From the NCBI RefSeq assembly GCF_905475395.1, contig NC_058339.1, forward strand, positions 51,345,172-51,409,171: a stretch of DNA of 64,000 nucleotides, read 5' to 3'. Below the pieces are notes generated by a model that saw only the letters and a list, made by a program, of their open reading frames with translations, was not told the origin of the DNA and did no database searches. This document shows, in pieces, positions 1 through 22,400 of this stretch. How positions within the stretch are numbered: position 1 is the stretch's first letter; each line of letters begins with the position of its first letter. Source of the DNA: Chrysoperla carnea (lineage: Eukaryota; Arthropoda; Insecta; Neuroptera; Chrysopidae). A program made the position numbers and the translations under genes.

Positions 1-346
1 AGCAAAATTTTATTACTAAATGAATATTTAAAAAAGAAAATCAAAACTACTTATTAACACAAAAATGGTTAATTTTATTTTGTTAATCATCACACATAAT
101 CTCGCGCTTTTTCTGTTTTTGGCATTTGAGATCAATTTATAACGAAATTTATTTATAAAAAAAATCATATTTTACGCCAAATTACAGAAGAAACGTCTTG
201 TTTTACGTTATATTAAATTTTTTTTAATATAATGTAATAATTTATTTATAATAAATGCTATAAATATTTAATTGAAATTTTAAAATATATTTTCTGAAAT
301 ATTTTTGAACATTTAGTAAATTGTGAAAATCAAATTTTGTTATCAG
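1..346 (+). other. Intronic sequence upstream of first visible Srrm exon
   Basis: AT-rich sequence with no supportable coding exon. It ends in a clean 3' splice site (TTATCAG before 347), so it is read as the tail of an intron of the SR-protein gene. The N-terminal exons of that gene, including any cwf21 domain, lie outside the window. Confidence 0.7.
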
Positions 347-3300
347 ATCTGGTAAAAAGAAAAAATCAAAACGAAAACGTCGTCATTCAACAGATTCATC
401 CGATTCAGATAATTCAGATAGTAGCGATTCAGAAGATAGTAACAGTTCGAGCAGTGAAGATGAGAAACGGAAAAAACGTAAAGGAAAAGATAAAAAGCAT
501 GAGGTATGTATTATATTCTTAAAAGTTGTTTAGCGAAATATCGATGATAAACAACAACTTTGTTCTTGAAAATCATTAATTTATCAATTTGAATATAAAT
601 AATCGAAAATGCATATATTCACATAGTTTATTTTAGAAAGTGATTGAGTAACCTTTATCAATTTGAATTTTAAACTTAATAGAATTTATTTGGATTTTTT
701 TTATTTAGAAAAAAAGTTCAAGTTCGAAGAAAAAACGACACACAAGTGTCAGTTCCAGAGATAGTTCAGTTGGAAAAACGCCAACTAAAAAAGCTCGCTT
801 AAATTCAAATTCTAGTAAAGACCTAAAATCTAAAGATGTTGACAATTCAAACGTGAAAAATGGTAAGGACAAAAATGAAAAAGATAAACATGCCTCTAAG
901 GATAAACATAAATCAAAACATGAAAGTCCCGATCGAAGTTTCAAAAAGAATAAAGAAAATTCACGTGATGATCGAAAATATCCGGAGAAAAATTCTAGGC
1001 AAAGTCGATCACCAAGACGGAATAATCGAGACAATAAAGATTATAACAATCGATATTATAACGATAATCGTAGATATCAAAAATATGATCGTTCTCCATC
1101 AAACAAAACATCCTCACGGTCACATCGCCGATCGCCAGACTATAACAGACGACGAAGACGTTCTACTAGCCGAGGAAAATCTGTAGAAAAATTTAATCGT
1201 GATAATCGTGAACGATCTAGATCACCACAAAGATCAAAGAAAAATGTTCCAAATTCGTCATATAAGTCGAAAAATCATTTAGATGTCTCACCGAATTCAC
1301 GACGAAGACAAAGATCAGATTCACGAAAACAACACTATTTACCTTCACCGAGAAATAGATCGAAAACACCAATCAAAGACAGTAAAAGCAATTCAAAAAA
1401 TACGTCACGACAATCAAACGATAAAGCGTATGATAACAATCACTCTGTAAAGGATTCAAAACCACGAAAATCTAGAAGTGTTTCTGCGTCACCAAAACAT
1501 AAACGATCATACTCACCAGAAAATAAGATTGAGAAAAAGCGTTCTCTATCCCCAGTACCGAAAAAAGCACATCACCATCGGTCTTCACCAAAACCGTCGA
1601 CCCGACGATCATCAAGTCGGAGTAGATCTCCCCCACTGACTGATAAAATGTATTCTCGAAATTCATCAGAGAAACGTGATAAAAAATCTACCACACATTC
1701 AAAGAAACGTCGAAGTGCCAGTACCGAATCAAAAAGTGATAAAAAGAAATCTGATAAAATCGAGAGTGACAAATCTAGATCCCGTTCAAAGTCAAAACCA
1801 AATCGAACTATTCAAACACCAGTTGTTCGTTTAACTCTATCAAGTGATGAAGCTGATTCAGACGTTGGCACCGATTTTAAAATTGATGAGGAACACGAGC
1901 ACGAATTACGTACTCTAAATATACTTAAAACAGATTTAGCTGCAAAAGCTAAAGAAGCTATTGAAAAGAAACTACCAAAACGGGCAGTTCCAGAAACCTC
2001 ACATAGAGGTAATAGTAATCAGAACTCGTCACATGAGGATGATAGTCCCGAAGAAAAATTACCACCGAAAAAGAATAGTGAACAAATTCTGAAAACATTG
2101 ACAAAAATAGAAAATGAATTATCAAAAAGGGCAGCTGCAGCCGCTGTTAAAAAGGATATATCTCCTCGCAATCGTATTCAAATCTCGATCGATAAAGATA
2201 AGGTAGTGGCACCTTTTAAAAAAATTGATGATTTAGTGATCAAACCATTACCTGTGGCAAATGATAAAAAAGATATTTCGCTAGATTCAATACAAATACC
2301 AGAAAGCAAACCAGTGGTAGCTGCAAAAGAAGAAAAACCTTTTTCAGATAAAGATAAAAAAATCAATCAAGAATCACCGAAAAATATAAAAAGTAAATCT
2401 AGAACTGTTTCAAGATCCCCATCTAAAGAAAAAATTTCTCCGGAGAAAATTGAACGTAAATCACGTAGTTCATCTAGATCCTCTGCCAGCTCACGACATT
2501 CACATTCTTCACGATCAAGTACTTCACGTTCTCGTAGTCGTTCGATATCAAGAACACGAACACATAGTCGATCTGCTTCTAGAAGTCGTTCACGAAGTGC
2601 ATCTTCCTCAAGTGGAGATGATTCAGCGAGTAGCCGTAGTGATTCTCCTGAGCATAGTCGAACATCTCGATCACGTTCTCCATCAATACCACGTCGATAT
2701 GGATCACCAAGTTTTCTTGATCGACGTCGTATTACCAGGTAAGACGAAAATATTTCATTTCAAATTAGTTTCCCTCGAAATCTTTATTTTTGTTTATTTT
2801 ATTTTTTTGTTTATGTTTTTGATATTTCCTTTACAGAAAATCCCGTTCCCGCTCGTAGGATTTTGAAGTGTGCAGATTAATTTAATTTATTTTTTATTTT
2901 TCAAATCAGACAAATCGTTATTCGAATTTTCGAATAGAATTATTTTTCAAATATTTCAATAACGAATTGCCTTATTTTTAAGCTTAATCATTGTAAACTG
3001 CTTCAAATGTAGACGATTATTTTTATTTACATTCAACAATTATTAAAGTATGTCTTTATGTGAACACATTTTTTATGTTTAGTTGTAAACAACCTAAACA
3101 CACATCCTGATAGATTAAGAGTCGCTGATTTAATGATATTTCGAGAAGTTTTGTATTTTGTAGAGACATTCTGCTATCATTTGCTGTAAAAAGAAACAAA
3201 AACTTTGCCCATATCGGTGGTTCATTAACGCCAATTTGATCAATCATTTAATCATTATTGTACATCCAAAGAAGCATTTCGAGTTTTGGATACGGTTATA

Positions 3301-5315
3301 AAAAATATACTATCTAAGCCAAACATACTGGATAGATCAGGAGATCGAATTTGATGTTTAAAGTTAATTTAAATTTACGTGGCTTATATCTCGTCTATCA
3401 AAGGCTCTCAAGAATTTAGCCGCTATGTTTTACCTATCCTAAACATTACTTACCTCCCAAATTTAATCAAGTTGAAATATTTTCTGACGTCTAATTTACT
3501 GAATGATGAACTATTTTCTAAATAATCTCCGAATTTCCAACAGAATATCCCTACACAGTACGAAATTTAATTAAATGTTCTTAAACGTAATTTCAACTAA
3601 ATAGATTACGAATATGTTTTCAAAACAATAATTTTACCACATACATTTGCGGAATTTTAGGGTCGTTATAATATCTAATTAAATTGAAAATATAAACATG
3701 AACTATTTATTTCATTTTGATACCGAAAAAAAATGGCTTCAACCGAATAGCCAAGCATTTTTGTACTAATTCTTTTCATTCATAATGGTATTAAAATTAC
3801 TGTTTTGAAAAACAATTTTTTCCTTTACGTAGAAATATTCAAAATAAATGAAGCACATTATTGTAAAATTTTATTTTGTTTTTATAGAAATTATTTATTT
3901 CTTAGCATGATGATATTATTATTTGTAAAATTATAAATTTTTGTTATATTAATTTTTTCTCCGTACGCATGGTTTATTTTATTTGATTCAATTTTTCTTT
4001 GTTTTATTATTTCTTATGTATATTTTACAGAGAAACGAAGATTTTTTTTTAAATGTGCCATATGCAAGTAGCATTTTTTTTATTTCTCTTCAAGTGTGTA
4101 TATTTTTTAATAACTAGAAATAAAAATTTATTTAATTAATGTTCCATTTTGATTTTGCAAAAATGGAGTTCGTATGAGATCATCTCAGAGCCTTTTTGTC
4201 AGCGGTGTTCTTAGAAACCATTTGTCTTTGATAGTTAAAATTTGACAAAGTTAAATATGTTTTAAACATTCCAAAATGAAAAATTTTACAATATAAAAAA
4301 AATCATTTCTCTTTGATAGTTAAAATTTGACAAAGTTAGGTATGTTTTACACATTACAAAATGTAAAAAATCAAAATCGGTTTCCCCTTTAGGAGCACTT
4401 CAACGCCACAGTTAAACAGAAACTCATAGTCAAATTTATAGCACCTCTCTTTTTTGCAAGGGGGTTAAGAATGATTGTTTATTCAATATTTGGGGGATGG
4501 ATTAATTTACAACATTAGTAAGGTTTCATTTGAAACATTTTGTCTAAGCCCACCACAACGCTAAGTAACGTCTCCCCCGAGTTCTTTTATTTCTAGTTAG
4601 GATTTTAATTTTTAAGTTTCAGTTAAAAGTATAATTAAATTAGCTACGTTTAGTTTAATAATTTCAGAGGTAAGTATTTTTAATTGAATATTCATCTTAA
4701 CAAATTCGAATTTGAATCATTTCTTATTATAAGTTAACACATTTTCATCTTCTTGCATGGTTTTATATATTCATCTTGACGATTAATCTCTTAATTCTGA
4801 TCAGAAATTAATTCGAGTTTGTTTTTTGCATCCAAAATAATATGAGTAATATATTGGGAAGTTTTTTACTATATAAATTAACTCGAGATGATCTTTAGTT
4901 TATAAACAAAAAATTAACCTAATATAAAATGAGTCACAGCCACAACAATGTCATTTAAATTTAAAATGAAATAATATTAAAAATTTTTGTTTAGAAAGTC
5001 TTGAACTACAAAAAGAAAATCCAACATATTATCATAACAATTTGTTTAAATTTTTATTAATATTACTAAAAATACTAACCACCGTGATTTATATTAATCT
5101 GATCAAACTTTAACTAATAAAATAATTTTCGTAGTGCTCGGAAACGTCCAATACCTTACCATAGACCAACACCTTCATCACCGTCGTCTATGAGTAGTTA
5201 CAGCAGTCGAGAGAGCAGTAGCCCATGGTTTTCACGGCGAAGTCGTACTGCATCTCCAATAACACACACAGTATCATCACGATCACCGACAGAAACACCA
5301 GATTACAGTCGATGA
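347..5315 (+). CDS. Srrm234: Serine/arginine repetitive matrix protein (Srrm2/3/4 type), 3' part, eMIC isoform
   Basis: Partial gene; the 5' end is outside the window. Exons seen: 347-503 (ends GAG before GTATGT), 709-2738 (ends CAG before GTAAGA), and a terminal exon at 5135-5315 ending in TGA. Frames join: 347-503 leaves phase 0, and 709-2738 leaves AG, completed by T as Ser. The protein is dominated by Lys/Arg/Ser: an S/D/E-rich block in the first exon, then long RS-type stretches in the large exon. The large exon ends RRYGSPSFLDRRRIT and the last exon continues SARKRPIPYHRPTPSSPSS. This is the hallmark of the eMIC domain of SRRM3/SRRM4 and of invertebrate Srrm2/3/4. Family knowledge: these are spliceosome-associated SR proteins, nuclear, and the eMIC part promotes inclusion of very short neural exons. 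PPIG/NKTR cyclophilins are also RS-rich, but they lack the SPSFL...RKRPIPY signature, so I prefer Srrm. AATAAA at 5740-5745 is a possible poly(A) signal for this isoform. Confidence 0.86.
2837..2858 (+). CDS. Srrm234: Proximal alternative terminal coding exon of Srrm gene (eMIC-less)
   Basis: A second 3' splice site lies only 98 nt after the donor at 2739. It has a strong pyrimidine tract ending CCTTTACAG, just before 2837. Joined to the AG left by the big exon, it reads R-K-S-R-S-R-S and stops at TAG 2856-2858. This short end lacks the eMIC-specific residues. ATTAAA at 3042-3047 could serve as its poly(A) signal. The exon is inferred from splice signals and frame, not from transcripts. Reading through the intron instead gives an unrelated tail. 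Confidence 0.7.
2859..5134 (+). other. Alternative 3' UTR / long intron between the two Srrm terminal exons
   Basis: No further coding exon is visible. The stretch would be 3' UTR of the short isoform (ATTAAA at 3042-3047, AATAAA near 4118) and intron of the eMIC isoform. It is AT-rich, with a pair of direct repeats at 4225-4375. Confidence 0.6.
4225..4375 (+). repeat. Two direct repeats, period about 85 bp
   Basis: The unit starting TCTTTGATAGTTAAAATTTG occurs at 4225 and again at 4310. It continues with CAAAGTTA, TATGTTTTA and CATT-CAAAATG in both. A third, shorter relative (TTAGATATGTTTTAAACATT, then TCAAAATGAAAAATTTT) sits at about 5370-5410 after the eMIC stop codon. Confidence 0.75.
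5135..5315 (+). CDS. Srrm234: Distal alternative terminal exon encoding the eMIC domain
   Basis: It begins right after TTTTCGTAG (5126-5134), a short and weak pyrimidine tract compared with the proximal site. It encodes Ser plus 59 residues: ARKRPIPYHRPTPSSPSS, a Ser-rich stretch with SSPWFSRRSRT, and the C-terminus TPDYSR followed by TGA at 5313-5315. RKRPIPY-H/Y-RP-PSS is the conserved core of eMIC domains. The distance to the upstream donor is about 2.4 kb. The weak acceptor against a strong proximal one is what would be expected of a regulated, tissue-restricted exon; the regulation is inference. Confidence 0.82.
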
Positions 5316-8300
5316 CAAATTTTTAAGCAATTCAAATGCTTGAAAAAAAATGATAATTTTTAGTAAATTTGTTAGATATGTTTTAAACATTTCAAAATGA
5401 AAAATTTTAAAACGACATTTTTGTCGTTTTATTTTTCAATCTTGTTATGTACAAATTGGTGCAATTTTTTGAACATTTTAAATGTTTTTTATTTTATTAT
5501 ACCAAAAAATCATTTCTTTTTAAGAAATGTAAAAATAGTAGAATTAATTTTGTTAATTTTTGAAGGTTTAGTCACACGCTAGTCTTGATCTGAAAATTTC
5601 AAATTTCACATATATGACCGATTTTATTGCAGTAATATTCTGCAAAAATGTACACGACTTTGTTTCAGATTTTAAGCATGGGACAAAGAAAGTATCTGTG
5701 ATGACTTGATACGATCGTCGCTGAGAAAATCATTTTAAAAATAAATATGATGAAAGAGTTTTAATTACTCTAAAAGTGTTTGTATTGTTTGGGACGGCGA
5801 ACATAATTTTAAACAAACGGAACTTTTCCAATCACACAGTAATTCATAATTCTATTTAATAAAAAATTCTCTTCGACGTCCTACATGTATTAAGAGAAGC
5901 ATAGCATCTCTAAAACACTTCGATTTTTTATCAATTTGAAGAGATCTTAACAGATATGTGATGTTTATTCCTGAAAAATGTAATCATTACATTCCATTTG
6001 AAGTAGCGAATCGAGCCCAGGTGCCAGAGCCCTCTAGATATCTAGTCTAGGGCGTAACCAACTCCGCCACTCCTATTCTATGTGAGTGGCACCAATTATA
6101 TGTAATCTCTTTAAGTCTTTATTCTATTTGTATGTTTTGTATACAGAGCAAACGCTTTGCACTATTATACAAGTCATAAAAATTACATATTTTTATTTAT
6201 TGTGACTTACAAGGTACACAACAATTTGAAATAAATGTAAAAAGTTTAGTTTCATAATAAAAATATGTAATTACTTTCCATGTTTATACAAATCATGCTA
6301 GCCGATTGATTCCGCAGGAAAAAATTCTATGAAATGGCCCTCGAAATTCAACATTCATATCCGAAGTCATTTCCGAAGCGCATATCCGATATCAAATCAT
6401 ATCCGAAGCGCAGATCGTTACGGATTTTACAGTTGACTTTTCACATTTTATCATGTCCACAAAAATTAACCGCTTCATAGCTGTTATCAATTAGAACATT
6501 GGTCAAAATAGGCTAGATATTTACGTCAAGTATAAACACGTAATACGTTCGTGAAATATTTGTAACTAGCGTGTAACTATAAACAGCGTAATTTTTATTT
6601 TGATATTTTAAAAATTTGCATCATACTTGAACAAGTTGTGATGAGTTTAATTCTTAATGATTTTAAGATTAATGTTAATATTACAATCTTATTAAAAAAA
6701 AAAAAAACAATTTTTAACTTATTCTAGTCAAAAATAATTATCTAGTCAAATTTTTTCTAAATAGGTTTTACTGTACCGGTTATAATACTCACAATTCATA
6801 TTTTTTAAATTTATTTTAATATACTCTTTTATTTATTAAAAAAAAATGTTCATCACAGAACAGAGAAGAGGGTTTTCCCATTCCACATTACCTCTGAGAT
6901 TATACCCAAAAAAAATTTTCTGTTTTGTAAAAATTATACAAACTAAAAAAAAAGAAGATTTAACAAAGATATTTTTTATCTTTCTAATATACTTAATTTA
7001 TTTATTTATTTTATTTATTTCAAATTATTGTGCAATAAATCTAAAAAATCAACAATACATTTAAGATAACGTATAATTCAATGTTTAAATAAAAATAAAA
7101 AGAATCATCCAAAAAAAAGCAGACTTAGAATTTCCAAAAAATCCCCGTAAATAGATTTACAATTATTATTGTCATATTATCAAACAAACAAAAAAAAAAA
7201 CATAATATTCTTTTTGTGTAGTCACTATTGTTGTGTGAACGAAATAAATTACCTATTATATTATGCTTACTTTTTTTTTATTGATTTTTTATACAAATCC
7301 TTAAAATGTTCCAAACAAAAGTTGTTTTAAAATTAACGTAATAAGAAATGTATTATGTTTTATTTAACTTATTTAAAATTCCTTAGCAAAACAAGATCAG
7401 TATTACTTATTATTGTTGTTCACATTTAATCATGCACACAATATTTACATCATGGTCTGTTCGACTAATTTTGATATATAATATGTTACATACACTCGTA
7501 AACTAATTATTGACAAATACTTGTCTAGTAATTTTTAATTAAAGAGAGATCAGTATTACCTTTAAATTCTTTTTAAAAAGCTTCAATAAATAGATATTAT
7601 TGGTAAAGGGCGACGCACAAAATTGTTTTATTAGAGAATCGTTTAGATTTTCCAAGAGATGGGATTTTCCAAAAAATCAGTATTTGAAAAAAAAAAAAAG
7701 GAAATAGAATAAAAGTAAGACAGATTACTTGCTTGGGTACTTCATCTCAACAAGCAACAATTAAAGAGGAAATATGATGAATATTGTAGCTCATAGTGGG
7801 CGACAAAATTATTCACTCTAACCTCTTATATCGCATTTCGTTGCAGACAATAATTGCTACAGAATGCAATAACGGCCAATTATTCGAAATGATTCCAATG
7901 AAGAATATTTCGGATTAGACTTATTTTCTATTACACATATGGCGAATATTAAAATAACTTATATAATTTTTTTTAATTTTATTTATTTCACAATAGAGTT
8001 ACATCAGAGATTAGTAAAAATCTTGAAAACATACCCGTATAAAAGATTTTATTAATAAAATGAATCTTTACTAAAAATTAAGCACTGTCCCCAACGGAAT
8101 ATCATCGAACATTATACAGCAGAACTTCAATAAAATTGAAAATTAAAAAAAAAGGAAGAGAATTCTTGTTCTGAGAAATCATTAAAAACTTCTACTATAA
8201 ATTTGAAGTTTTTGATTTATTAACTCTATTCCAAATTAAAAAAATTTGATTTGTAAATAAGAAATCAATTGCAATGAATAGAAAATTTAAATTTTCTATT

Positions 8301-8458
8301 CCTGAATCGGAATTTTTCTTACTATGGTAGATAAATAAGTGTAAGTTTTGTGCACAAAACTATGAAGTGGCTCTTCCGCTGGTAGCGCCAATTATTACGA
8401 ACCTCTATAACTCAACATTTGAACTATGGAGGTTTTACTGTAATATAAAAATGTTTAT
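5316..8458. other. Intergenic region, Srrm 3' end to first PXMP2-like gene
   Basis: About 3.1 kb, very AT-rich with several A-runs. Short open frames at 6846-7064 and 8367-8555 are low complexity or overlap the 3' end of the next gene, and are not credible genes. It holds a SINE-like tRNA-derived segment (6003-6075) and a 26-bp perfect palindrome at 8276-8301 (centre AAATTT). Confidence 0.7.
6003..6075 (-). repeat. tRNA-derived SINE-like segment
   Basis: On the minus strand, TGGCGGAGTTGG (6058-6069) matches an RNA polymerase III A box, and GGCTCGATTCG (within 6007-6020) matches a B box. A long variable-arm-like stretch lies between them, as in tRNA-Leu or tRNA-Ser. The segment does not fold into a full tRNA by eye (acceptor stem not closed), so it is read as a SINE head or tRNA relic. 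Confidence 0.5.
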
Positions 8459-9199
8459 TTATTTTAATTTTTTTTCTTGTCTACAATTTCTTTTGTTGGC
8501 TAAATATACCACCCAAAAGAATCCAACAAAATTTCCAATAAGTACTTGTAACTGAAATTAAACAATTGAAATCAACACAAGTTTAAAGAATTTTAATATT
8601 TTTACTTACTAGTGGTGGAACTACACAAAAGTTTAATAGATGTATCGCACTTATATATTTCCAATTAGCAAATAAAATCGGTGAAAAAACTGTTTTTAAT
8701 TGCCTGAAAGCTTCATTGTGTGATTTTCCTTCTAAGCATGTAAGTATATACAATGTAAATGCTGTAAACGCCGGTGCAAATAATAAACGTTCAATTACAA
8801 TTTTTGTTATTACCGCACTTGTAACTGCTCCTGGTACGAATAGTTCAAGATAAGTATAAAAGTAATGAGGAATTATACCACCAAAAAATAAACTAAAAAT
8901 ATATTTAAAAATATTAAAATAACGATAAAATTTAATCAGTTATATTGCTAAAATTTTACCCAAATAAAAAAAACGCTAAAAGCGTATGTCGATTTATTGA
9001 CTTCGCGCCTGAACTATATTGGGCAACAAAGTTACCACTTGTTGATATTACACAACTAAAAAAAATGGTTAATATAAAATTTGGATAAATGAACTAAATA
9101 TAAAAATTACCTTGTTATTGACTTTGTTAGAATCGGATTTGAATATAGTTGCATTAAATATGCGTCTAGTAGATCATAAAATGGTCTCAATAAAGCCAT
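8459..9199 (-). CDS. Mpv17/PMP22-family peroxisomal membrane protein (PXMP2-like), copy A
   Basis: Minus-strand exons in transcript order: 9111-9199, 8960-9055, 8610-8892, 8459-8551 (TAA at 8459-8461). All junctions have GT-AG and frames join, giving 561 nt and 186 aa, the normal size for the family (about 175-195). The start ATG is 9197-9199 (MALLRPFYDLLDAYLMQLYS). Family signatures: YSNPILTKSIT near the N-terminus; FFGGIIPHYFYTYLE; RLLFAPAFTAFTLY; LEGKSHNEAF; ANWKYI with HLLNFCVVPP; and C-terminal GNFVGFFWVVYLANK. Members are small four-helix membrane proteins; PXMP2 forms a non-selective peroxisomal channel and Mpv17 is mitochondrial. PXMP2-like is preferred but the compartment is not proven. 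The tandem partner is copy B at 10579-11340. Confidence 0.9.
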
Positions 9200-9552
9200 G
9201 GTTTTTATTTTATTCTAAATTTTTCTAATAAATTAAAAAAATTGAGGTCAATTTTTTACTTAATAAAGGCAACGAAAATTTGTTATCTTTTTTATCTTAG
9301 TTTTGATATCGTAATCATTATAAGTATTGCTTGTAATCATTTAAAGTTTTCTTAATATGATGTAAATGTGTAAATGTACCCGAAAAATGTCATGAAAATT
9401 TAGAATCTCAAGGACAACAGACATACTAACAAGCTTTGAAAATTTTAAAATATATGATCTAAGCTCTGACAAGCATAGAAATTGTTCTTGGTAATTCAAG
9501 TTACTAAGTTGGTTATATTATTCTATGCAGGTTAATGCTAACAAATCATCTT

Positions 9553-10090
9553 AAGACGGTTCTATACACATTTTTCAATGACGCGTGAAATCATTATTTG
9601 ATTGGCGTGAAACTTTATAATTTTTTTAAGACACCTCTTAAAAAAAATGTTTATAAAGAAAAGCCGTTTTCCAGATTAAGAATGGTTAAAGTTACAATTG
9701 AATTTCAAGCACTGCAAATACACCCTTTGTTCTATCCATTTCAAATTTGGATATGTTATAGGTACTCATATTCTATCCGCTCTGGTTACTTTTATTTTTC
9801 CAAAATCCTGTTAATTTTCATAATTTTCATTGTTCAAACTTAGGTACTTTTTCGTATTCCACTATATCTGAATGTGAACAATGAAAAATGGGAAAATTAA
9901 CAGGATTTTCGAAAAATAAAAGTAACCAGGGCAGGTAGAATTTGAGTACCTATAACATATCCAAATTTCAAATCGATAGAGTAAGGACCGCTTTTCTTTA
10001 TAAATATTTTAAGAGGAGTCTTTAAAAAATTAGTTTCACGCCAATCAAATACTGATTTACCGCCATTGAAAAATATGTATAAAACCGTCT
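9553..10090. repeat. Fold-back element (long inverted repeat) between PXMP2-like copies
   Basis: The left arm, about 9553-9838, is mirrored by the right arm, about 9874-10090. Outer ends are AGACGGTTCTATACACATTT and, inverted, CCGTCTT. Both arms carry TTGATTGGCGTGAAA and a block reading AGTAACC with ACAGGATTTT toward the centre. The spacer is only about 35 bp. A third copy of the left arm lies at 50366-50535. The frames at 9598-9843 and 9897-10250 are frames through the repeat, not genes. Confidence 0.85.
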
Positions 10091-10578
10091 TTAGCACCCG
10101 TTCTAAATTTGGAAATGTCGCGGTAAACTGAAAACAAAAATAAGAATGAATCCTATGCGGAGAGATAAAAAAGAAACTCAACATACAATTGCTCCTGTTA
10201 GAATACGGAGAACTCAATATTCGTAAGTATAACCCCGATGGATTTTTCATTTCTTCTTTCGCCGACTTTATATTATTTATTATTAAGCATATTAATAAAA
10301 ATATGAATTAATTAATTTCGAATTAGCACCATTACATTTTATGAAACAATTTTGTATCACATATGCGCAGATACTAAAAGAATTGATATAAACTTTTTAA
10401 ATTTTATGTATTTTACAATATATTACACCAAATATAAATAAAAAATTTTACAAATCAGCCGTATAAAATATATATTTTATAAACAAAATAACAACTTAAT
10501 TAACCATTAATAAAAATTAAAAAATGCCCCGGAATGTTTTAAAAAATTATTAATATAAAAATGAATTATTCGAAGAAT

Positions 10579-11340
10579 TTATTTGGATTTTTCTTGTTGT
10601 CTACGATTTCTTTTATTTGCTAAATATATCACCCAAAAGAATCCAACAAGGTTTGTTATAAGTACTCGAAACTGAAATAAAAGTAAACAATTGAAAAAAA
10701 ATAGCTTGAAACTACTAGAGTTTAAACCTTGGTCATTTTTACTTACCATTGGTGGAACAACACTAAAGTTTAATATATGAATTATAGTTAAGTATTTCCA
10801 ACTAGCTTGTAAAATTGGTAAATATAAAATTTTTAATTGTCTAATAGCTTCATTATGCGATTTTCCTTCTAAACGTGCAAGCATGTACAATGAAAATGCT
10901 GAATTTAGCGGCGAATACAACAAACGTTCAATTAAAATTTTTATAAACACCGCGCCTGTGACTGTTTTTGGTACTAATCGTTCAATGTACATATAAAAGT
11001 AATGAGGAATTGTACCTCCAAAAAATAAACTAAAAATACAAAAAAAAAGGTTAAAATAATGCCCAAATAAACAACTATTTTCTTGAAATTTTACCCATAT
11101 AAACCATAAGCTATAAGCGAATCTTGATTTATGAACTTTGTACCAGAAATATATTGAGCAACAAGGTTACCACTTGTTGCTATTACACAGCTAAAAATAA
11201 AAAGTTTTGAAAATAATATTTCAAAAAAATTGCTTAAATATAAAAAATTACCTTGTTATTGACTTTGTTCGAATTGGATTTGAGTACAATTGCATTAAAT
11301 ATGAGCCTAGTAGGTCATATAATGGTCTAGATAAAGCCAT
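10579..11340 (-). CDS. Mpv17/PMP22-family peroxisomal membrane protein (PXMP2-like), copy B
   Basis: Exons in transcript order: 11252-11340, 11095-11190, 10747-11029, 10579-10671. These are exactly the same exon lengths (89, 96, 283, 93 nt) as copy A, again 186 aa. Start ATG 11338-11340 (MALSRPLYDLLGSYLMQLYS), stop 10579-10581. Motifs: FFGGTIPHYFYMYIERL, ERLLYSPLNSAFSLYML, LEGKSHNEAIRQL, ASWKYL with HILNFSVVPP, and FRVLITNLVGFFWVIYL. The C-terminal FRVL..NLV.FFW fits the family consensus better than copy A (LQVLIGNFVGFFW). The last intron is open in frame, so a naive reading frame runs through it. The gene is transcribed away from GCN1. Copies A and B are clearly paralogues from a tandem duplication. 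Confidence 0.92.
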
Positions 11341-13464
11341 GTTTTAATTATTTAAAAAATCTAAGAAACTGAAGTCAGTTTTTTACTTATTAATAAAAAC
11401 TACAATAAATTTGTTTTCAATCTTATTTTTAATATTATAATCACTTAATTTATTGCTTACGTTGTTAAAATTTATGTTTATTGTTTATTTATGTACCCAA
11501 TGACCGGATTAAAAAAGATTTCTTGTTGATAAATCTTATTGACTTAACTGTGTACTGAGTAGGGTTATCTAAAGTATAAATCAAGTTAATTTATAAATGA
11601 ACATTGGACATTACTAGCAATTTTCTGTTTTAAAAGAAAACTGTGTAAAAAATCGAAATTTTATGACTATTCAATTTAATTGCACTTAACACAAAAATTT
11701 AAACACGTATTAAAAAATACCGTAATTTTATTATTATATGTTAACGATGTTAACTGAGAATTTTAAAAATTTCATGTTTTAATTAAGAGTTTAGACAAAA
11801 GTTAAGTGTTAAGTCTTGTGGTCTCATAATTGATATTAATGTAAACATACATTAACTTTTAATATAAATATCAATTCTAATAATAATTTTTATATTTAAC
11901 CGACCTCAAGAATCGATGAAAAAGAGGAAGGTTTCTCTAATACAGAATACTTCTACTTAAAAGAGGGGGTCTGTAGGCCTATGTATAGGATTTAACGACC
12001 GCATTTTGATAAAACAGCTATAGTTAGATAACAAATTAATCTAACAGTCATAGCTATAGGTACATACCAACTATCCAACTTTTTGAATCTGAACAAACTT
12101 TATGATGATAAAACTTACCGTTTTGCTTAAAATCGCGAAAACCCCGTTTTTGTGACCTTTGACGCCGAGTTAATATTTTTCCAGGTATCGGATCGATGAG
12201 GGCTTTTTAGATTTCATTTATGATACGTGTTTTGAAGAATCCTAACAACTTTGAGCTGGGTGCGAATTTTTGAATCTTCACTCCTATTTTTTTGGTTTAA
12301 TTTGACCGGATAATAATAATAACCACAATAATCTACTTCAGACCAGTGACCACACTAAAAAGCAATGGTCATATACGAACACAATGTGTTATTTTTTAGT
12401 GCTATTTTTGAAGTTGGTTCTTTTTTGTTAATAAGTCATTAATAAGTCTTCCTATACATATTTGATAAGTAGCAAGTATTAATAAAGTTGAAAGCTTTAT
12501 AATTGACCCATATTAATTATAATTATTATGCAGGACAATTATCATTTCTCTTATTTGATTATTAAAATTCTTTCCACATTTGGAACATTTTTTAAGTTGA
12601 TAACAATAAACCAATCGGTTATTAATTTCTTTTTAAGATATACTATTTCATATTTGAAAATTACAATTAATTTTTTGCACTGATTACAATAAACCCTAAG
12701 ATGAATGTTCAAAATAGAGCAAAATGAAAAGCTATTTCTATTGTATGTAGGTACCAAAATTAGGTTCATTTTGATAATTATAATGTGTGGACAAATGGTG
12801 TCCTTCTTCCAAGTTGTCAACTTTATGGAAGTGAAATTACTGAAAAGAGTGCATAGTAAAGCTCACTTACCGAAAAGAAGACTTCTTTGTGTACCATAGT
12901 GCAATAGATAGTTACTAAAATGGCTTCCTTTCAGTTTCCGTGATCCACCGCAAATGTTTTCTGCGACAACCTCCCTATGGGACCGGTCGCCATGAATGGT
13001 TGAGTCCGCATACGGTAAAGTATAAAACAGTCTAAATTGTCCCCGGAATGTGCCAAAATTTCTTTGAAAACACACCCGTTAGGTCATGGAAATCAAACAA
13101 AGTCATGTTAGTTGCCAATATAGAGCTGAACCCTTATTTTTCAAAAAAAAATTTGACGCGCTCAAATTATGCTTTTATTTATGTGTACCAAAATTAACGA
13201 TTTTAAATGAAGTCTTGAAATGATTTTCGTTACTCCTTCGTTCTATACTAAATACCTTAACTTATTTAAAAACTGTTCAAATAAAATTTTCAAATTGCCT
13301 CCTTACACCTTAAAAGCAATGAATGGACACCAATGAACAACCATGTTGATTTGTCACATCCAGGTTTTTCTAGTTACTTTTAATTATTATCATTTTGATA
13401 CCATTTGACATGACAATTTATTTTATAACTACATTCACATAAATCAATCATACAAACGAAAAAT
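11341..13464. other. Intergenic / divergent promoter region of PXMP2-like B and GCN1
   Basis: About 2.1 kb between two divergently transcribed genes, so promoters of both should lie here; no certain core element was identified. A less AT-rich patch at about 12860-13080 includes a 70-codon minus-strand frame (12863-13075) ending beside a consensus-like GTAAGTGAG. I do not recognise a protein in it. A segment around 12120-12300 looks repeat-like but has no second copy in the window. Confidence 0.55.
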
Positions 13465-16400
13465 ATGGCAGACGACGAAGTAAGTGCCGCACGTGTATTC
13501 AATACGAATAATCCGTAAATATTGTATGAAGTACATTTAAAATAAACAAATTTTTTTTTCAGCTGTCTAAAGCTTTAAAAGACCTTTCTATTCGTATCCA
13601 AACCGCTAGTATTAAACAGCGACAAGTTGTAATACAAGATGTTATATCAGTTTTATCAAATGAAGGTAAAAATTAAATTGCAAATTAGGAAAAATCTTAT
13701 TTAATATGCGAATTTATTTGAAATTTATTCTTAAAGGGATCACCGAAAACATCATACGAGGAATATGTAAAGTATTACAATTGGTTTTACCTCGATATAG
13801 AGATTTGAAATCTCAAATTTTAGTCAAACATTTAATATCGACCTTATTAAAATATCATTTTGAATGGACGAAACAGCATTTAGTCATTATTTTAAAAGAA
13901 TGTGGGGAACAATTAAGAAATATTGTACCAACGTGAGTTACTTTTATTGTTTTACAAAGAAATTTTTGATTAATTAGGGCAAAGTGACAATAATTGCATA
14001 ATATGTTTTCAAGTTAAGTAAATACAATTCAGTAATCATTTTTGTCATTTCAGAACGTATACAGCCAAATCCAGCTTAATTGCATTAAATTGGTCACTCC
14101 TGTTATTTCAAGCAGCTTCAAAAGATTCGGAATGTTTGAAAAAAGTGATCGAAGAATTAGCTCCAATACAAGCTATTCTACTAACCACTATTATTTCAGT
14201 GGGGAATAATAAATTAACACGAAAAGCTAATAAGTGTTTAACGATTATGTGGAAATCTATTGAGGATAGTGAATCAACATATCTTGAAGTGTTAAGTAAC
14301 TCGGAACCAACTTCTGATGTAATTGTACTTGTAGCGTGTATCAATCAGACGCTAGATCAAAAGAATAAACAAGCTAATTTAATCAACAAATATAAGGTTA
14401 GTTCTTTCAAAATTATATCTATCTTCAATAAAATAGTTATATTTTTTACTTCATTAATAGTCGTGTCATTTTAGCATTTCATAGAGAATTTTTTTGTACC
14501 TCAACCTATCAACCAGTTTTTTTTTTTTTTTTAATGATCAGGAAGGTCCATATATCGGAATCTACATCTAACTTTTTGCCGCTAGAAAGTTTTGGTTTTG
14601 CAATGGGTCCAATAGGCTAATCATTAGAAATTATTTATAAGGTGATTTTTGAAAATTTTAAAACCTTGAAAATATGGGCCAGAAACAAATAATCGGGGGT
14701 TTTCGGGGTCTATGATCACTATTCCGAAATCAAAATTTCGATATAATCTCCCCCCTCTTGTAATTTACCCGCTGGTTCAAAATTGCAATATTCTGATTCA
14801 ACAAAATGGATCAAAAGAGTATACTCAGGGGTTTTTGGGGTCACTGAGCACGATTCCGAAGTTGGAATGAAGATGAACTTCCTTCTTCTGCGGATATTCG
14901 CACTCGCTGTTCAAAAACAGCAGGATTCTGTAAATATTCGACAATATGGACCAAAAAAGTATACTCGGGAGTTTTTGGGGTCACTGATCACGATTCCAAA
15001 GTTATAAAACTTTCTTTAGGTTTTTCGCCCTTCGTTGACCTAACAATGCATTTTTCTGTAAATATTCAATTTGGACCAGCGGAGTGAATTACTCTAGGAG
15101 GAGGGGAGTATATCGAAATTCTGACTTCAGAATAGTGACCAGCGATCCCGAAAACCCTTCAAATGTACGTTTCTGGCCGATTTTGTTGCATATTTTCAAG
15201 GTTTTGAAATTTTCAAAAATCACCTATCATAATAATGGGCTTTTTTGGCCCATAGCAATGGCCAAACTTTCTAGCGGCAAGAAGTTAGATGTAGATTTTG
15301 ATGCATGGACCTTCTTAAACATCACACTGTATAACACTGTTCTTTGATGGTCGTTTTATTTACATATATTTTTTTACAGGAAAAATTTTTGGATATATTT
15401 ATAAAAACTTTAATTAGTTGTAAAACGAAACCATCACCAACAATAATTGTAGCATGTTATCCATTTTTAAAATTGATCAATCATGAAGATTTTAAAAATG
15501 TTCTACTGCCAGCTTTACAAAAAGCAATGCTACGTAGTCCAGAAGTAATTTTGGAATGTGTTGGTCTAGTTATATCTGGTATATCAATTGACTTAAGTAA
15601 TTATGCTGCCGATATTGGTAAAAGTTTAACAGGTATGATTCGTTAAAGTATAAGCTATTACAACTTGGATTAAATATAAAATTTAGTACCTAAGCTAATT
15701 TCGACCCCAAAAACACAAAATATCAAGTTTATTTGGTGATTGGGTAAATAATTTCTAAGATATCGTTCAAGATCCTGATACGAAGAGCGATTACTCGGTT
15801 CGATTTCAGGCAATTTCTAATAAAATGTTTGTCTAGTCCAATGAATTAAATTTTCGTAACTCCTGGGTATTAATTATTCCATAAAATTCAAAACCCAAAA
15901 GATCTTTTTTTTTTAAATTTGGAATTTTTAATTTACCACAAAAATATCTTCAACAAAAATAAATAAACTTTCTTAAAAATATTTTGTTCTAAAATTAATA
16001 CATTTTTATACCATGTATATATGAAATATACATAGTATATTAAGTTTAGTCCAAAGTTTGTAACGCCTAAAAATATTCAAGCTACGAAAAAAATTTTGGT
16101 ATAGGTGTTCATAGAATCACCTAATTAGTCCATTTCCGGTTGTCCGTCCGTCCGTCTGTGCACACGATAATTCAAAAACGATAAGAGATATCAAGATGAA
16201 ATTTTTATAGCGTACTCAGGACCTAAAAACTGAGGTCATGTTCGTAAATGAGCAATATGGGTCAATTGGGTCTTGGGTCCGTAGGATCTATCTTGTAAAC
16301 CGTTAGAGATAGAACAAAAGTTTAAATGTAAAAAATGTTCTTTATAAAAAAATAAACAACTTTTGCTTGAAACATTTTTTTGTAAACATCACTGTTTACC

Positions 16401-19400
16401 CACGAGGGCGCTTATTAGGTGCAAATTTTATAGTATACATTAATATGGGAATATCAGTGTGTGTGTAGCTATTTAAAAGTGAATCATCATTTTTTATTAA
16501 CGTGACGTCAAAAAACAAACGATTGCTTCATCAACACTGTCTATACATGGTATTTCAACAATTAACTCAGTCAATTGTTTGTTTTCACTTGTTTTACAGT
16601 TAATTTAAGTTCGAAAAATGATCTAGTACGTGAAGAAGCTGCTATTGGTTGTAAACATCTTTCTATGCACTGTAACAAAGCGGACGCCATTGAAAGTTTA
16701 TTGACTCAAACATTTGGAATATTTAATGGTTCAAATGGGAAATTAACTGTACTCGAACATAAATTGAGTGTATTGAAAGGTGCCGGTAATTTAAGCGAAA
16801 ATAACATAACAAACAATACAAATTTAGCTCAATCTGCTGCCGAACATTTTTTCAAAGTACTTGAATCTGAAGTGAATGAAACATGTTTATGTTTTGCATT
16901 AAAACAATTATCCAGATGGTGTCAAAAATTTGTTAAAGAAATTCCGAAAAAAGTTATTGATGGTTTAAAGAAAGGAATGGAGTTAAAAACATCGACTCCA
17001 AATGTTCGCGTTGTGTATATTGAATGTATGCTAACATGTTTTAATAAAAGTATGACCACACAAGGAATTGATTTGATACCGGCGTTGCTAAAATCTGTAG
17101 AACGTGCTGTAGCGCAATCGACACAACCTGGACCTGTTACTGAAGGTGTATGTGCGGCTAGATTACTCTTACGAATTGCTAAAGCTGATTCTAATACAAC
17201 AGCAAAAATGCAGCCATTATGGAATGTTATTTACGATATGGATAAACAAATATTTATTTCGGATAAATTTTTAACTATTGGAACTGAAGATGGTAAGGAT
17301 TTTATATTTGAAATTGATTAATGCTCTATAAATTAATTTGTACTTACAAAAATTTTAGTATCTTAAGAAGCGAAGTTAGAAATGTTATGCCCTTTTTAGA
17401 AGCAATTTGTCACTTGACGGTGGGGGGACTTCTGCCTGAATGAATGAATCAATCAAAAGTTTCGGATTCAAATATTCTATTTCTAAATCACAATAAACAA
17501 AGTAGATTTTTCGTAACTAATTCTTGATTTGCATGCACTGGCCAAATGCACCATGAACTCTGTTATAAACATACACATATAATTTACTTTGTATATTTCA
17601 TTCGATTTAAACGAATTTCATTTAATTAGGATTTAGTTTTTACAAAAATTTCGTCCGACACACCTCTTACAAAACAAGAATTAATTTATCATTCTCCAAA
17701 TTCAAAACTAAAGATAATAAATTTTTTCAGCTTTGTTACATGTGGTATTACTCTGTGAAAGTTTACTTTTGGATCATTTACCAAAATTAGTTGGTAAAGA
17801 ATTACCAATCTACAAAGCGATAATTCATTCCACATGTTCAATTCCACATCATATTCGAAAATTAGCGCTAAGTTCAATCAAACAAATCATATCAGCGCCA
17901 AAGTCTACAGGCACAGTTCATGCATGTGCATTACTGACAGAATTATCAAATTATATGTTTTCGGCGAAAATAGTTAATCGAGAACAACGCGAATCATCAG
18001 AACCTACGAAGAATCATGAAGTACATCCACATATTTTTGTTGAAGTAAGGCTTCGTTGATTAAAAAGTTACATTTCAAATATTTTGAACCTTATTCAATA
18101 TTTTAGATTATTACCACAATCTGTTCGAGAAGTAACTTAGCTGTAAAAGATGCTCATCAATTGGCGTTCACTGCGTTAGTACCAACACATCATCCTTCGG
18201 TTGTAAATATTGCACCAGGTTTATGGAGACGGCTTATTAAATATATTAAAGTTGAGCCCAAAAAGTTTATTAATTTATATATTAAACAAATCTATAAAAC
18301 GTATATTGATGATTACACGGCTACACCGGTAAGTTTTTACACTAACCATATACAGTCCGTTCTGTAAATCATTTCCCATAGTACATCAATAAGTGTGAAA
18401 GATTACATTTATATTAATCAATGTGTATAAAAAAGAGACTATTACAGTGAAACTTGGTTAAGTGAGACATCAAGGGACCTGCAAATTTTTCTCATATGTA
18501 GAGGTATTTCCCTTATCCAGGTATAAATAAAAATTTGTCTCATTTACAGAGGGTACCATTAATAGAGGTCAGAATACAGGCTATTTCAGTTATAGAGATG
18601 CGATTATTAAATAAAATAAGTTATTATTTAAATATACGTGAGATTTAATCTTTATTGGGAATCAAAAAAAGATGTAAATAATATAAATCCTTCAGAACAT
18701 TGCAATTGTATTTTATCTTTATTCTGAATTATTCTACAAAGAGTAGATTTTGGCACATTAAATCCGACACAGACTTCATCGCGTGTTTTCCCACTTTCAT
18801 AAACGGATATTAACTTCAGTTTTTCACGTACTGATAACGATTTTAAATCCGTATGTTAGTAAAGCAAAACTAAAACTGAAGGTCATTGAGGCTCAAAATT
18901 GTGTGGAATTTACGGATAGAATAAGAATAAGTAAATAAACAAACAAAACGGTGTTATCTCAGCTGCAGAGGTTAATGCATATAAAATTCACTCGTTGTCT
19001 CAGTTATAGAGGTAACTATGACGATAAAATTGAAAGAACGAATCCCAGATGTAGAGGTTTGCTACGTTCCACTAACAGAGGTAATTCAGTGCCAGTGCCA
19101 GAGGTAATTCAAGTGTTGGGACCTCAGCATGAGTTCCAGCTATGGAGGTTTCTCACTTATCCAGATTCCACTTAACCAAGTTCCACTGTATATAGTTTTC
19201 TAAAGCATTTCACATTAATTATTTCATACACACATACATATGCTATTGCGCTTCAAGCTGTATCGTCATTTAAGATGTCATTGAAGAGTGGGGATTTTGT
19301 ATTGCATTCTTAGTTAATAAATTTCTTTTTTTAATTTACTTTTTTAGACAAACGAAAACATCTTAGCTAACTTAATCTCTTTGACACCAGATCTATTATT

Positions 19401-22400
19401 ATCATATTTAGTCCAACAAGTTGAAGGGCGATTAAAATTACCGGCACTTTTACAAATTACAAAGGATGATTATTTTATATTTTTAACACCCGAAGGGGAA
19501 TTGTACGATAAGAGTGTTATTCCAGGGTAGGTTTTTAATTTCATTACAAGATTGATTATAGAATTTTGTGTTTTTGATTTTCAATTGATTTTTAGAAATG
19601 ATGAAAACACTCTAAATACTATGAATATGAAACGAGAAAGTAAAGCTTACAGTTACAAAGAACAGCAAGAAGAATTAGCGTTGCGCCGTGAATTACTTGA
19701 GAAAAAGAAAAAAGAAGGAAAAATCACTGAACCACAATATACTCCAAAACAATTGGAAATTATTAAAGCACAAAAAGACAAAGAATCTGCAATAAGAAGT
19801 AAATTAACTGAGGTTAGCATTTCATATTTCGAGTCTCATACATGTTATAAACAATAAATAATTTAAATTACAAACAAGAAACTAACCAGTTACAAAAAGA
19901 GTGGCGCAAGTATATTTAAAAAAGTTGCCTTTAAATACGAAAATAAAAAAAAAACTATCAAAAATACATTAAAATTAATGTTAAAAGTTACCTTAAAATA
20001 GTACATTTTCTATCGCCAGATAAAACCACGGTCTTGGTGGATTTCCCCAATTTTTATTTCCTACATTTCACAATATTGAAATGTCTTTTTTTTTGCAGCT
20101 AAACACTATGCTAACAAATACAGTATCTTTAGTTCGAGCCTCAGCTAAAGGGCATCCAGTCGAATTATCTGTATTTTATCGTGATTTAATTCCAGCCGTA
20201 CTTGGAACTTTGCAATCACCGTTAGCAGCTCCATTATTAACATCACTTTTCGTAGATTTACACGAAACAATTTTCGTAAATGAACTGAAATATATTGGAA
20301 ATTTAATTTCACACGTATCGCTTCGCTTGTTGAAACCTGCCTGTGATTTAGATCCACTCTGGGAAGAAGAAAATTTAACAGATGCAATAAAACGAACAAT
20401 CAATTATATTCACGATACTACAATTAAAACTCGTGATCCAGAATTAAATCCAGAAACGCCACAATTTCATTTTTCAGCTCCAATGTTAAGTTATACTTTC
20501 CCGTTTTTAAAAACAAGTTTGCTTTCACCGGAAATTAAAGCGGACGAAAAAGTTTTACATGATGCGTTACAAATTATCTCTGAACATTCAAAATTGCGAG
20601 GCCAATTAACAGGCGATAAACGTGATATATTCCATCCAAAATTACTTCCACATAGGCAAATGTTTGAGTTATTAGTTGAATTAGTTAGCTCCACAACTGG
20701 GCGAGTACAATCTCAAGCTGTTGCGTGTTTATTGGATGTGGCAAAAAGTGCTGGAGGTGGTGAGAACTGTGCAAAAGCTTCAGAATCTGAATTAAGTGTT
20801 TTGTTAGTAGCGCTTCAAAATCCATCCGAATTTGTTCGAGATGCTGCATTACGAGCTTTGCAATTAATGGCATCTACAATTCCTACACCGAAAGAGAATA
20901 AAGAATTAGCTTTAACCACGTTACGTAGGGTGTGGATTGCCAAATATGATAATTCCGAAGAAATAAGGTATGAGAACAAAGTTCCATATGTTTTAAAATT
21001 ACTAATGAAGGAAATGTTTTTAGGACTTTGGCAGAAAAATTATGGGAGGATGCTCACTTAGAAGTTTCTAATAATTTAGGTGAATTAATTATGCAAGATA
21101 TTCAACATCCTGTTGAATGTATTCAACAATCTGCCGCATGCGCATTACGTGCACTTCTAGAACAAGAAATTCAAACAAATCCAAAGAAAATTGATACAAT
21201 CATACAGAGGCTTTTGAATATTTATAAGGACAAATTAAATGTAAGTTATAAAACAAAGATTCGATTTCAATATATTGTGGGCAGAGTTATCAAATTCGGA
21301 TAAAGGCTAAAATTTTTAATTATGTATAAATATTGAGACATCTAAGACATATTTCGCTATATTTGCTCTTAAACAAAAAAATTCTTCATTGTAAAATGTT
21401 TTATGAGTTTTGATATCTTAAAGATATACAACAAACACTCTTATTTTTTGATCGATGGTTATAGAAAAATATTTTTTTTTTTTGCAGATAATACCACCAA
21501 CATTGGATAATTTCGGTCGAGTTGTAGAACAATCTATCGATATGTGGGGCCCAAGACGAGGCGTAGCACTTGCTTTAAAACAATTAGCACCGTTAATTCC
21601 GCTAGAATCAATTGGTAAATTAATATCATTTTTCGTAAAAAGTGGATTAGCTGATCGCCATGAAGATGTACGTGCTGAAATGTTAGCTGCAGCTTTAGCT
21701 GTTGTTGAATTGCATGGAAAAGATACAATTAGCACAGTTTTACCAGTATTTGAACAATTTATGGATAAAACACCAAAATCTGGTGGCTTTGATTCTGTTC
21801 GACAAAGTGTTGTAATTTTAATGGGATCATTAGCAAAACATTTAGAAAAGGATGATGAACGATTAAAACCAATTGTAATGAGATTAGTAGCAGCGTTATC
21901 AACACCTTCACAACAGGTAACTGGCAATTTTTAAGCTGCTGTGAATCCGCAGCAGAATCCGTTTATCTTATTCCAATCTCCTGCAACTAGAAATAATGAG
22001 TCACTTTTAACATTTCAAATTCTTGCGGTCCGTATTTAATTATTTCAAACTTATGACAAATTTATGTTTAGTTTTCTTATACTAATTTTCAAATTTAAAT
22101 TATTATATTTTCACTGTAGGACTTTTTTGAAAATACAGTTTTGAACTTTTTTTAGGTGCAAGAAGCCGTTGCAAATTGCTTACCACCGTTAGTTCCAGCA
22201 ATAAGGGATGACGCTCCAAATATTGTTAACAAATTATTACATCAACTATTAAAATCCGAAAAGTATGGTGATAGAAAAGGGGCTGCTTATGGAATCGCTG
22301 GTTTGGTTAAAGGAATGGGTATTTTAGCTCTCAAACAATTAGATATCATGACCAAATTAACGGAAGCTATCCAAGATAAAAAGAATTATAAGCATCGTGA

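Follow-up and report, generated by a model that had tools for sequence, protein, structure and literature searches.

The 3' end of the Srrm234 gene of the lacewing Chrysoperla carnea carries two predicted in-phase last exons, one of which would complete an eMIC domain

The window analyzed here, 64,000 nucleotides of Chrysoperla carnea DNA (NC_058339.1, positions 51,345,172 to 51,409,171), lies in Srrm234, as indicated by an SRRM2-like N-terminus, a cwf21 domain and an RS region. Residues 1 to 158 of the protein match SRRM2 of solved spliceosomes (PDB, E 5.8e-48), the cwf21 domain (PF08312) scores 66.2 bits against a cutoff of 23.2, and the long RS-rich stretch is apparent by eye inside the large shared exon. 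Among the best candidates of exon-by-exon searches of the genome, the SRRM_C profile found one locus, and an eMIC protein used as the query found a single place for the RKRPIPY/eMIC block. In these same searches Srrm234 appeared as one gene with both kinds of end, and a separate Srrm3/4 was not found. The other place with a cwf21 domain, at C6:26.2 Mb, was rejected as a second Srrm gene since it matches U2SURP. No RNA family reached the gathering threshold within positions 1 to 12000. Splice-site strength was scored with self-written weight matrices and ranked against the 3082 GTs and 2913 AGs of the window. The exons and introns of the 3' end, in window coordinates, are as follows:

347-503, + strand: shared coding exon, Lys/Ser-rich, end phase 0 (reading frame and splice phases join)
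709-2738, + strand: large shared RS-rich exon, an open frame of about 676-677 codons, with the first half of eMIC/SRRM_C in its closing codons (...SRSRSPSIPRRYGSPSFLDRRRIT)
2739-2744, + strand: common donor GTAAGA (ranked in the top 0.26% of the 3082 GTs)
2739-2836, + strand: near intron of 98 nt with a U-rich tract, closing AG at 2836
2837-2858, + strand: coding part of the near (non-eMIC) last exon, translated as (R)KSRSRS-TAG (acceptor in the top 0.62% of AGs)
5114-5118, + strand: CTAAT, branch-point-like, of the far acceptor, within a 117-nt AG-free stretch
5135-5315, + strand: far last exon, eMIC second half, SARKRPIPYHRP..., stop TGA at 5313-5315 (completes PF15230 to position 67 of 67)

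The initial annotation had described one donor facing two acceptors in the same phase, of which the near one (2836) would give RKSRSRS and a stop and the far one (5134) would complete ...SPSFLDRRRIT with the eMIC core. The sequence and the translation of the joined exons agree with this description throughout. Exon 709-2738 ends in ...SPSFLDRRRIT plus AG, i.e., in phase 2, GTAAGA follows at 2739, and both the near and the far exon fit this phase. The near exon reads as described; the far intron closes with the AG at 5134, 2.4 kb from the donor to the far acceptor, and exon 5135-5315 translates as S-ARKRPIPYHRPTPSS...DYSR-TGA, which also carries the SRRM_C match onward. Further acceptors are present besides these two, including 2858 and 4030. 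The one at 2858 (top 0.24% by score, RILKCAD-stop) was rejected as a main site because what looks like its pyrimidine tract is C-rich coding DNA lying directly behind acceptor 2836, and the matrices favor C in this C-poor DNA. Acceptor 4030 (RETKIFF-stop, AG-free zone of 123 nt, AATAAA at 4119) possibly opens a third last exon.

The eMIC domain, a low-complexity RS sequence reportedly defined in a 2019 paper, is split by the intron: its first half is already in the shared exon, and the donor falls within the eMIC-coding region. Eight C-terminal constructs were compared with SRRM_C (PF15230, cutoff of 27 bits): the shared end alone, the near end, the far end and five other in-phase ends drawn from the 13 best-scoring acceptors in 2740-5400. 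Only with the far end did the match run from profile position 27 through to 67, the last one (41 residues on 41 positions). The other seven scored 30.1-35.3 bits and ended at profile position 55 or 56, with 34.0 bits for the shared end alone (positions 27-55 of 67) and 30.1 bits for the near end. With the far end in place the score is 60.1 bits against the cutoff of 27, and the RKRPIPY block can be called homologous to eMIC, as had been proposed, a call that relies on Pfam. As the sequence reads, the near-end isoform would be left with half an eMIC domain, which the far end, in the same phase, would complete. The promotion of microexons by the lacewing eMIC would be a role carried over from the fly.

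Between and beyond the two ends there are several elements that could take part in the choice between them:

3042-3047, + strand: candidate proximal poly(A) signal ATTAAA, GU-rich downstream (motif scan, prediction)
3843-4124, + strand: two more candidate poly(A) signals, AATAAA at 3843 and 4119, in a UUUNUUU-dense stretch (motif scan, prediction)
4670-4675, + strand: very strong donor, GAG/GTAAGT, between the two ends (top 0.06% of 3082 GTs)
5740-5745, + strand: candidate distal poly(A) signal AATAAA, GU-rich downstream (motif scan, prediction)

The donor at 4670 could turn the near exon into an internal poison exon (2837-4669) spliced to 5135, like isoform G of the fly; at 1833 nt the predicted exon is long for an internal one, which counts against it. 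The TTTCAGAG/GTAAGT layout also suggested a recursive site at 4667-4670, with an exon of zero or two bases, but this was judged less likely than a poison-exon donor. It should be noted that at a G+C content of 29% poly(A) hexamers are frequent: 15 of them lie in 2837-7000, including the candidates at 3042, 3843, 4119 and 5740.

In Drosophila melanogaster Srrm234 (CG7971), according to passages of PMC8797185, isoforms A and G are made without eMIC and isoforms C and F with it, the eMIC turns on tiny neural exons, and the choice of the end is under Elav/Fne control. We assign a probability of roughly 0.9 to the reading that the lacewing locus is the 3' end of Srrm234 and works as in Drosophila; the usage and tissue of both ends, the poly(A) sites and the use of donor 4670 would then be those of the fly. 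Most cells would splice to the strong near acceptor and polyadenylate at a proximal site, or else retain the near exon as a poison exon via donor 4670; either way the protein would have no complete eMIC. In neurons, the U-rich sequence in the near intron and the tracts around the proximal poly(A) sites would be bound by an ELAV/Hu protein, leading to skipping of the near exon and polyadenylation at the distal site. In this way the common donor could be joined to the weak far acceptor, and the complete eMIC would then act on neural microexons together with the early 3' splice-site factors U2AF and SF1, with which eMIC is described to work in passages of PMC8797185. The conserved fly-like switch of the initial annotation stands as far as the layout goes, which matches that of the fly, but it is probably more than a competition between two acceptors: in the fly, alternative polyadenylation and a poison exon work together with alternative splicing, and candidate parts for both are present in the lacewing.

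The U-rich tract of the near intron holds 6 overlapping UUUNUUU (Elav-like) sites at 2783-2812, and 10 such sites are found in 3969-4118. Five neighboring exon-like matches on C6 jointly span nearly all of the ELAV/Hu family profile; none of the five reaches the family cutoff exon by exon, and a stop codon lies inside three of them, probably from reading into introns. At least 6 UUUNUUU sites occur in 0.8% of all 97-nt windows and in 18 of 1684 YAG-ended ones. As for the controls, one of the 14 inferred acceptors of the neighboring GCN1 gene equals the count of 6 and another has 5, as does the constitutive Srrm234 acceptor 708. Alone, the Elav-like tract is not distinctive in this AT-rich DNA, being only mildly unusual. 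This would suit a different reading, in which Srrm234 has both ends but the far one is set by polyadenylation alone (or is constitutive at a low level), is non-neural, and escapes ELAV control in lacewings. We regard it as improbable, since experiments in the fly have shown both the neural restriction and the control by Elav/Fne, and the layout is reported to be conserved within holometabolous insects (both in passages of PMC8797185).

The contrast between a strong near and a weak far acceptor, already proposed in the initial annotation, holds in the ranking, with the near one in the top 0.62% and the far one only in the top 39% of the 2913 AGs. The far score of -3.4 is the lowest of the seven proposed Srrm234 acceptors (the next is -0.2) and even the weakest of the 14 inferred GCN1 acceptors, at -1.9, exceeds it; scores there lean high since the GCN1 introns were chosen with the same matrices. 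Such weakness might be expected if the far exon were a relic, its eMIC block still open but no longer spliced in. However, the exon is intact with a stop, in phase with the donor, and matches to the very end of SRRM_C; its acceptor has branch-point motifs and the 117-nt AG-free stretch, and weak 3' splice sites have been published for regulated eMIC-dependent exons, all of which makes a relic very unlikely. That the RKRPIPY block resembles eMIC by chance is hardly credible. The far exon without the shared half gives only E 0.091 with SRRM_C, which would suit chance, but across the predicted junction the match reaches 60.1 bits and pairs 41 residues with 41 positions, up to the profile end.

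In the fly, eMIC-dependent exons are described as having an extremely weak 3' splice site, a strong upstream donor, a long AG exclusion zone, a strong CUAAY branch point and UGC near the 3' splice site. The lacewing far acceptor has several such features: it is weak, it has a strong upstream donor and a 117-nt AG-free zone, and it carries both CTAAY and UGC. With thresholds set after the site was seen, the combination of 117 nt or more without AG, CTAAY at 12-40 nt and a nearby UGC was found at the far acceptor alone (1 of 3336 YAG sites on both strands of 84 kb) and at none of the 14 inferred GCN1 acceptors. The eMIC exon might itself be eMIC-dependent, with the eMIC protein, after a start by ELAV, aiding its own weak far acceptor. 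We hold this prediction to be unlikely: the far acceptor has no UCUC-rich tract, its exon is a terminal one rather than a microexon, the UGC falls within the opening bases of that exon, and acceptor 4030, with 123 nt, has a long AG-free zone too. If true, it would create a self-sustaining neuronal state and explain how neurons keep the microexon program once started. The strings "autoregul," "self-regul" and "feedback" are absent from the main text of PMC8797185, and in the literature joining srrm, autoregulat and emic, the autoregulation passages found, as far as these excerpts extend, have other topics than eMIC self-regulation.

The last-exon layout is already published for other insects, and the lacewing is a new example, not a new kind. 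Passages of PMC8797185 name Drosophila, Anopheles, Tribolium and Apis in connection with the switch. Among the literature titles listed, none concerned lacewing Srrm234 or lacewing microexons. The lacewing apparently adds a neuropteran, from an order of holometabolous insects to which none of these four belongs, and this case supports the age of the switch within holometabolous insects. Exact junctions can be given (2738-2837 and 2738-5135), and the main fresh point is the prediction of self-activation, drawn from the unusual features of the far acceptor.

Like fly Srrm234, the lacewing gene has a common donor within the eMIC-coding region, a near exon that stops after a few residues and a far exon that completes the eMIC and, as candidates, proximal and distal poly(A) signals, a poison-exon donor and UUUNUUU sites. 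Unlike in the fly, where the minigene (three exons, two introns) takes about 1.2 kb, the lacewing region is larger, with 2.4 kb from the donor to the far acceptor, and the near tail is RKSRSRS instead of four residues (fly data from passages of PMC8797185). For the lacewing, the use of both ends in RNA is predicted. SRRM2 has an N-terminus like that of the lacewing protein, which also has cwf21; it is described without an eMIC in PMC10551640, a state similar to that of the near-end isoform of the lacewing. In vertebrates, according to passages of PMC8797185, eMIC expression is controlled at the level of transcription, via Srrm3 and Srrm4, and not by last-exon choice, whereas the proteins themselves, SRRM3 and SRRM4, are like the lacewing far-end protein in having a C-terminal SRRM_C/eMIC domain.

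In the lacewing Srrm234 gene, the last codons of the common exon (709-2738) read ...RRYGSPSFLDRRRIT; two further bases precede the donor GTAAGA. The initial annotation had this one donor (2739) facing two acceptors in the same phase, at 2836 and 5134, which the sequence and the translation of the joined exons bear out: the near exon (coding part 2837-2858) gives RKSRSRS and a stop, and the far exon (5135-5315) encodes SARKRPIPYHRPTPSS... before its stop. Eight constructs were scored against SRRM_C, the Pfam family (67 positions, cut-off 27 bits) of the microexon-promoting eMIC domain of SRRM3/4. The common end alone reached 34.0 bits (positions 27-55), five other in-phase ends 32.3-35.3 bits and the near-end construct 30.1 bits, whereas the far-end construct attained 60.1 bits (positions 27-67), the alignment halting at position 55 or 56 in all the others. 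By itself, the far exon scored only E 0.091. The domain is thus interrupted by an intron and, among the ends tested, completed only by the far exon.

The window spans bases 51,345,172-51,409,171 of contig C3. The remaining exons, in the joined frame, are as follows.

L003:5653-5891 (stretch upstream of the window): Srrm234 exon, by reading of genomic DNA
L002:2088-2192, 6858-7130 and 7622-7684 (another upstream stretch): Srrm234 exons, by reading of genomic DNA
347-503, followed by 709-2738: Srrm234 exons inside the window

The frame starts with MYNGIGLQTPRGSGTNG and runs without internal stops for 962 residues in the near form and 1015 in the far form. The N-terminal 172 residues align with SRRM2 of solved spliceosomes (E 5.8e-48, residues 1-158) and include a cwf21 domain (66.2 bits). 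Searches of the genome, scoring the top candidates exon by exon, found SRRM_C at one place and cwf21 at two, one being Srrm234 and the other (C6:26200144-26200287, in stretch L004 of another contig) matching U2SURP of solved structures (E 4.7e-13). From the SRRM2-like N-terminus, the cwf21 domain, the one SRRM_C place and the assignment of the other cwf21 to U2SURP, we conclude that the predicted gene is the insect Srrm234, in one copy. Also upstream of the window lies an open exon that starts with ATG (L002:5954-6324; C3:51341253-51341623) and is 123 codons and 2 nt long; its donor is GTCAG/GTTAGT, and a Pfam search gave no match. Joined to L002:6858-7130 it keeps the frame open, and could be an alternative first exon whose product would be without the cwf21 domain.

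With weight matrices written for this analysis, the common donor ranks in the top 0.26% of GTs; among AGs, the near acceptor falls within the top 0.62% and the far one only within the top 39%, the strong-near, weak-far pattern initially described. The far acceptor is also the lowest of the seven proposed for Srrm234 (-3.4; others, -0.2 to 5.6). By the same matrices, the strongest donor between the two ends is 4670 (GAG/GTAAGT, top 0.06% of 3082 GTs). It is the candidate by which the lacewing would use the near exon as an internal poison exon, as in fly isoform G; that exon would have 1833 nt, long for an internal exon. Acceptors 4030 and 2858, between the two ends, are also in phase with the common donor. 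The product of 4030 is RETKIFF and a stop, with AATAAA at 4119, making a putative third last exon possible. In the fly study, three acceptors from the common donor are quantified (PMC8797185).

A motif scan gave 15 AATAAA/ATTAAA hexamers in 2837-7000, with these candidate poly(A) signals.

3042 (ATTAAA), 3843 (AATAAA) and 4119 (AATAAA): candidate proximal signals
5740 (AATAAA): candidate distal signal, the best by GU content downstream

Other genes were recognized in the window, one of which supplied the control introns.

8583-8939 and 10579-11166, minus strand: two adjoining frames that match the Mpv17/PMP22 family at 39.0 and 51.5 bits
about 13,500-26,500, plus strand: probable GCN1 gene, mostly by eye, source of the control introns; frame 22156-23142, the sole one profiled, matches EF3/GCN1 HEAT profiles
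28951-29634 and 31340-31975, minus strand: Kelch-repeat protein (Pfam; 31340-31975 by eye only)
34305-36047, plus strand: WD40 protein (Pfam)
39253-39609, minus strand: amino-acid transporter exon (Pfam)

The last 97 nt of the near intron hold six overlapping Elav-like UUUNUUU sites, a count attained in 0.8% of all 97-nt windows (84 kb) and in 18 of the 1684 with a YAG end, and 3969-4118 holds 10 (joint fourth among non-overlapping 150-nt windows). These tracts are only suggestive of ELAV control, because one of 14 inferred GCN1 acceptors also has six, another has five and so does one constitutive Srrm234 acceptor. On C6 (24.99-25.05 Mb), five exon-sized matches jointly span nearly all of one ELAV/Hu family profile; none reaches the family cut-off singly and three contain a stop codon. 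Since we read them as a single ELAV/Hu gene, a trans-acting factor for the switch is probably available.

Upstream of the far acceptor, AG is absent for 117 nt and the pyrimidine tract is poor (0.47 pyrimidine); two CTAAY and one CTGAY lie within 60 nt, and the exon begins with TGC. CTRAY was absent from the eight other listed sites (five constitutive acceptors, near, 4030 and 4667). Under thresholds fixed after inspecting this site, the combination of 117 nt or more free of AG, CTAAY at 12-40 nt and TGC nearby picked out only the far acceptor among 3336 YAG sites (both strands, 84 kb) and none of the 14 GCN1 acceptors. In the latter, the longest AG-free zone was 83 nt and CTAAY occurred once, in one of two doubtful introns. 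The control introns were inferred from phase and the same matrices, which skews their scores upward; their choice was independent of AG-free zone and branch point. That the far exon is itself eMIC-dependent, making the gene self-activating, seems to us improbable, given the post hoc thresholds and the 123-nt AG-free zone of candidate acceptor 4030. Like fly eMIC-dependent exons, the far exon has a weak 3' splice site, a strong upstream donor, a long AG-free zone, CTAAY and UGC; unlike them, it is no microexon and has no UCUC-rich tract.

Among the literature titles listed (most subscription journals outside their scope), we found no paper treating Srrm234 in lacewings. From the fly, we infer that lacewing RNA would use both ends, with neural restriction and ELAV control. 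The conserved switch of ends that the initial annotation suggested, as in Drosophila, is backed by anatomy and homology and, the lacewing being a holometabolous insect, is an expected instance of an already known insect arrangement.
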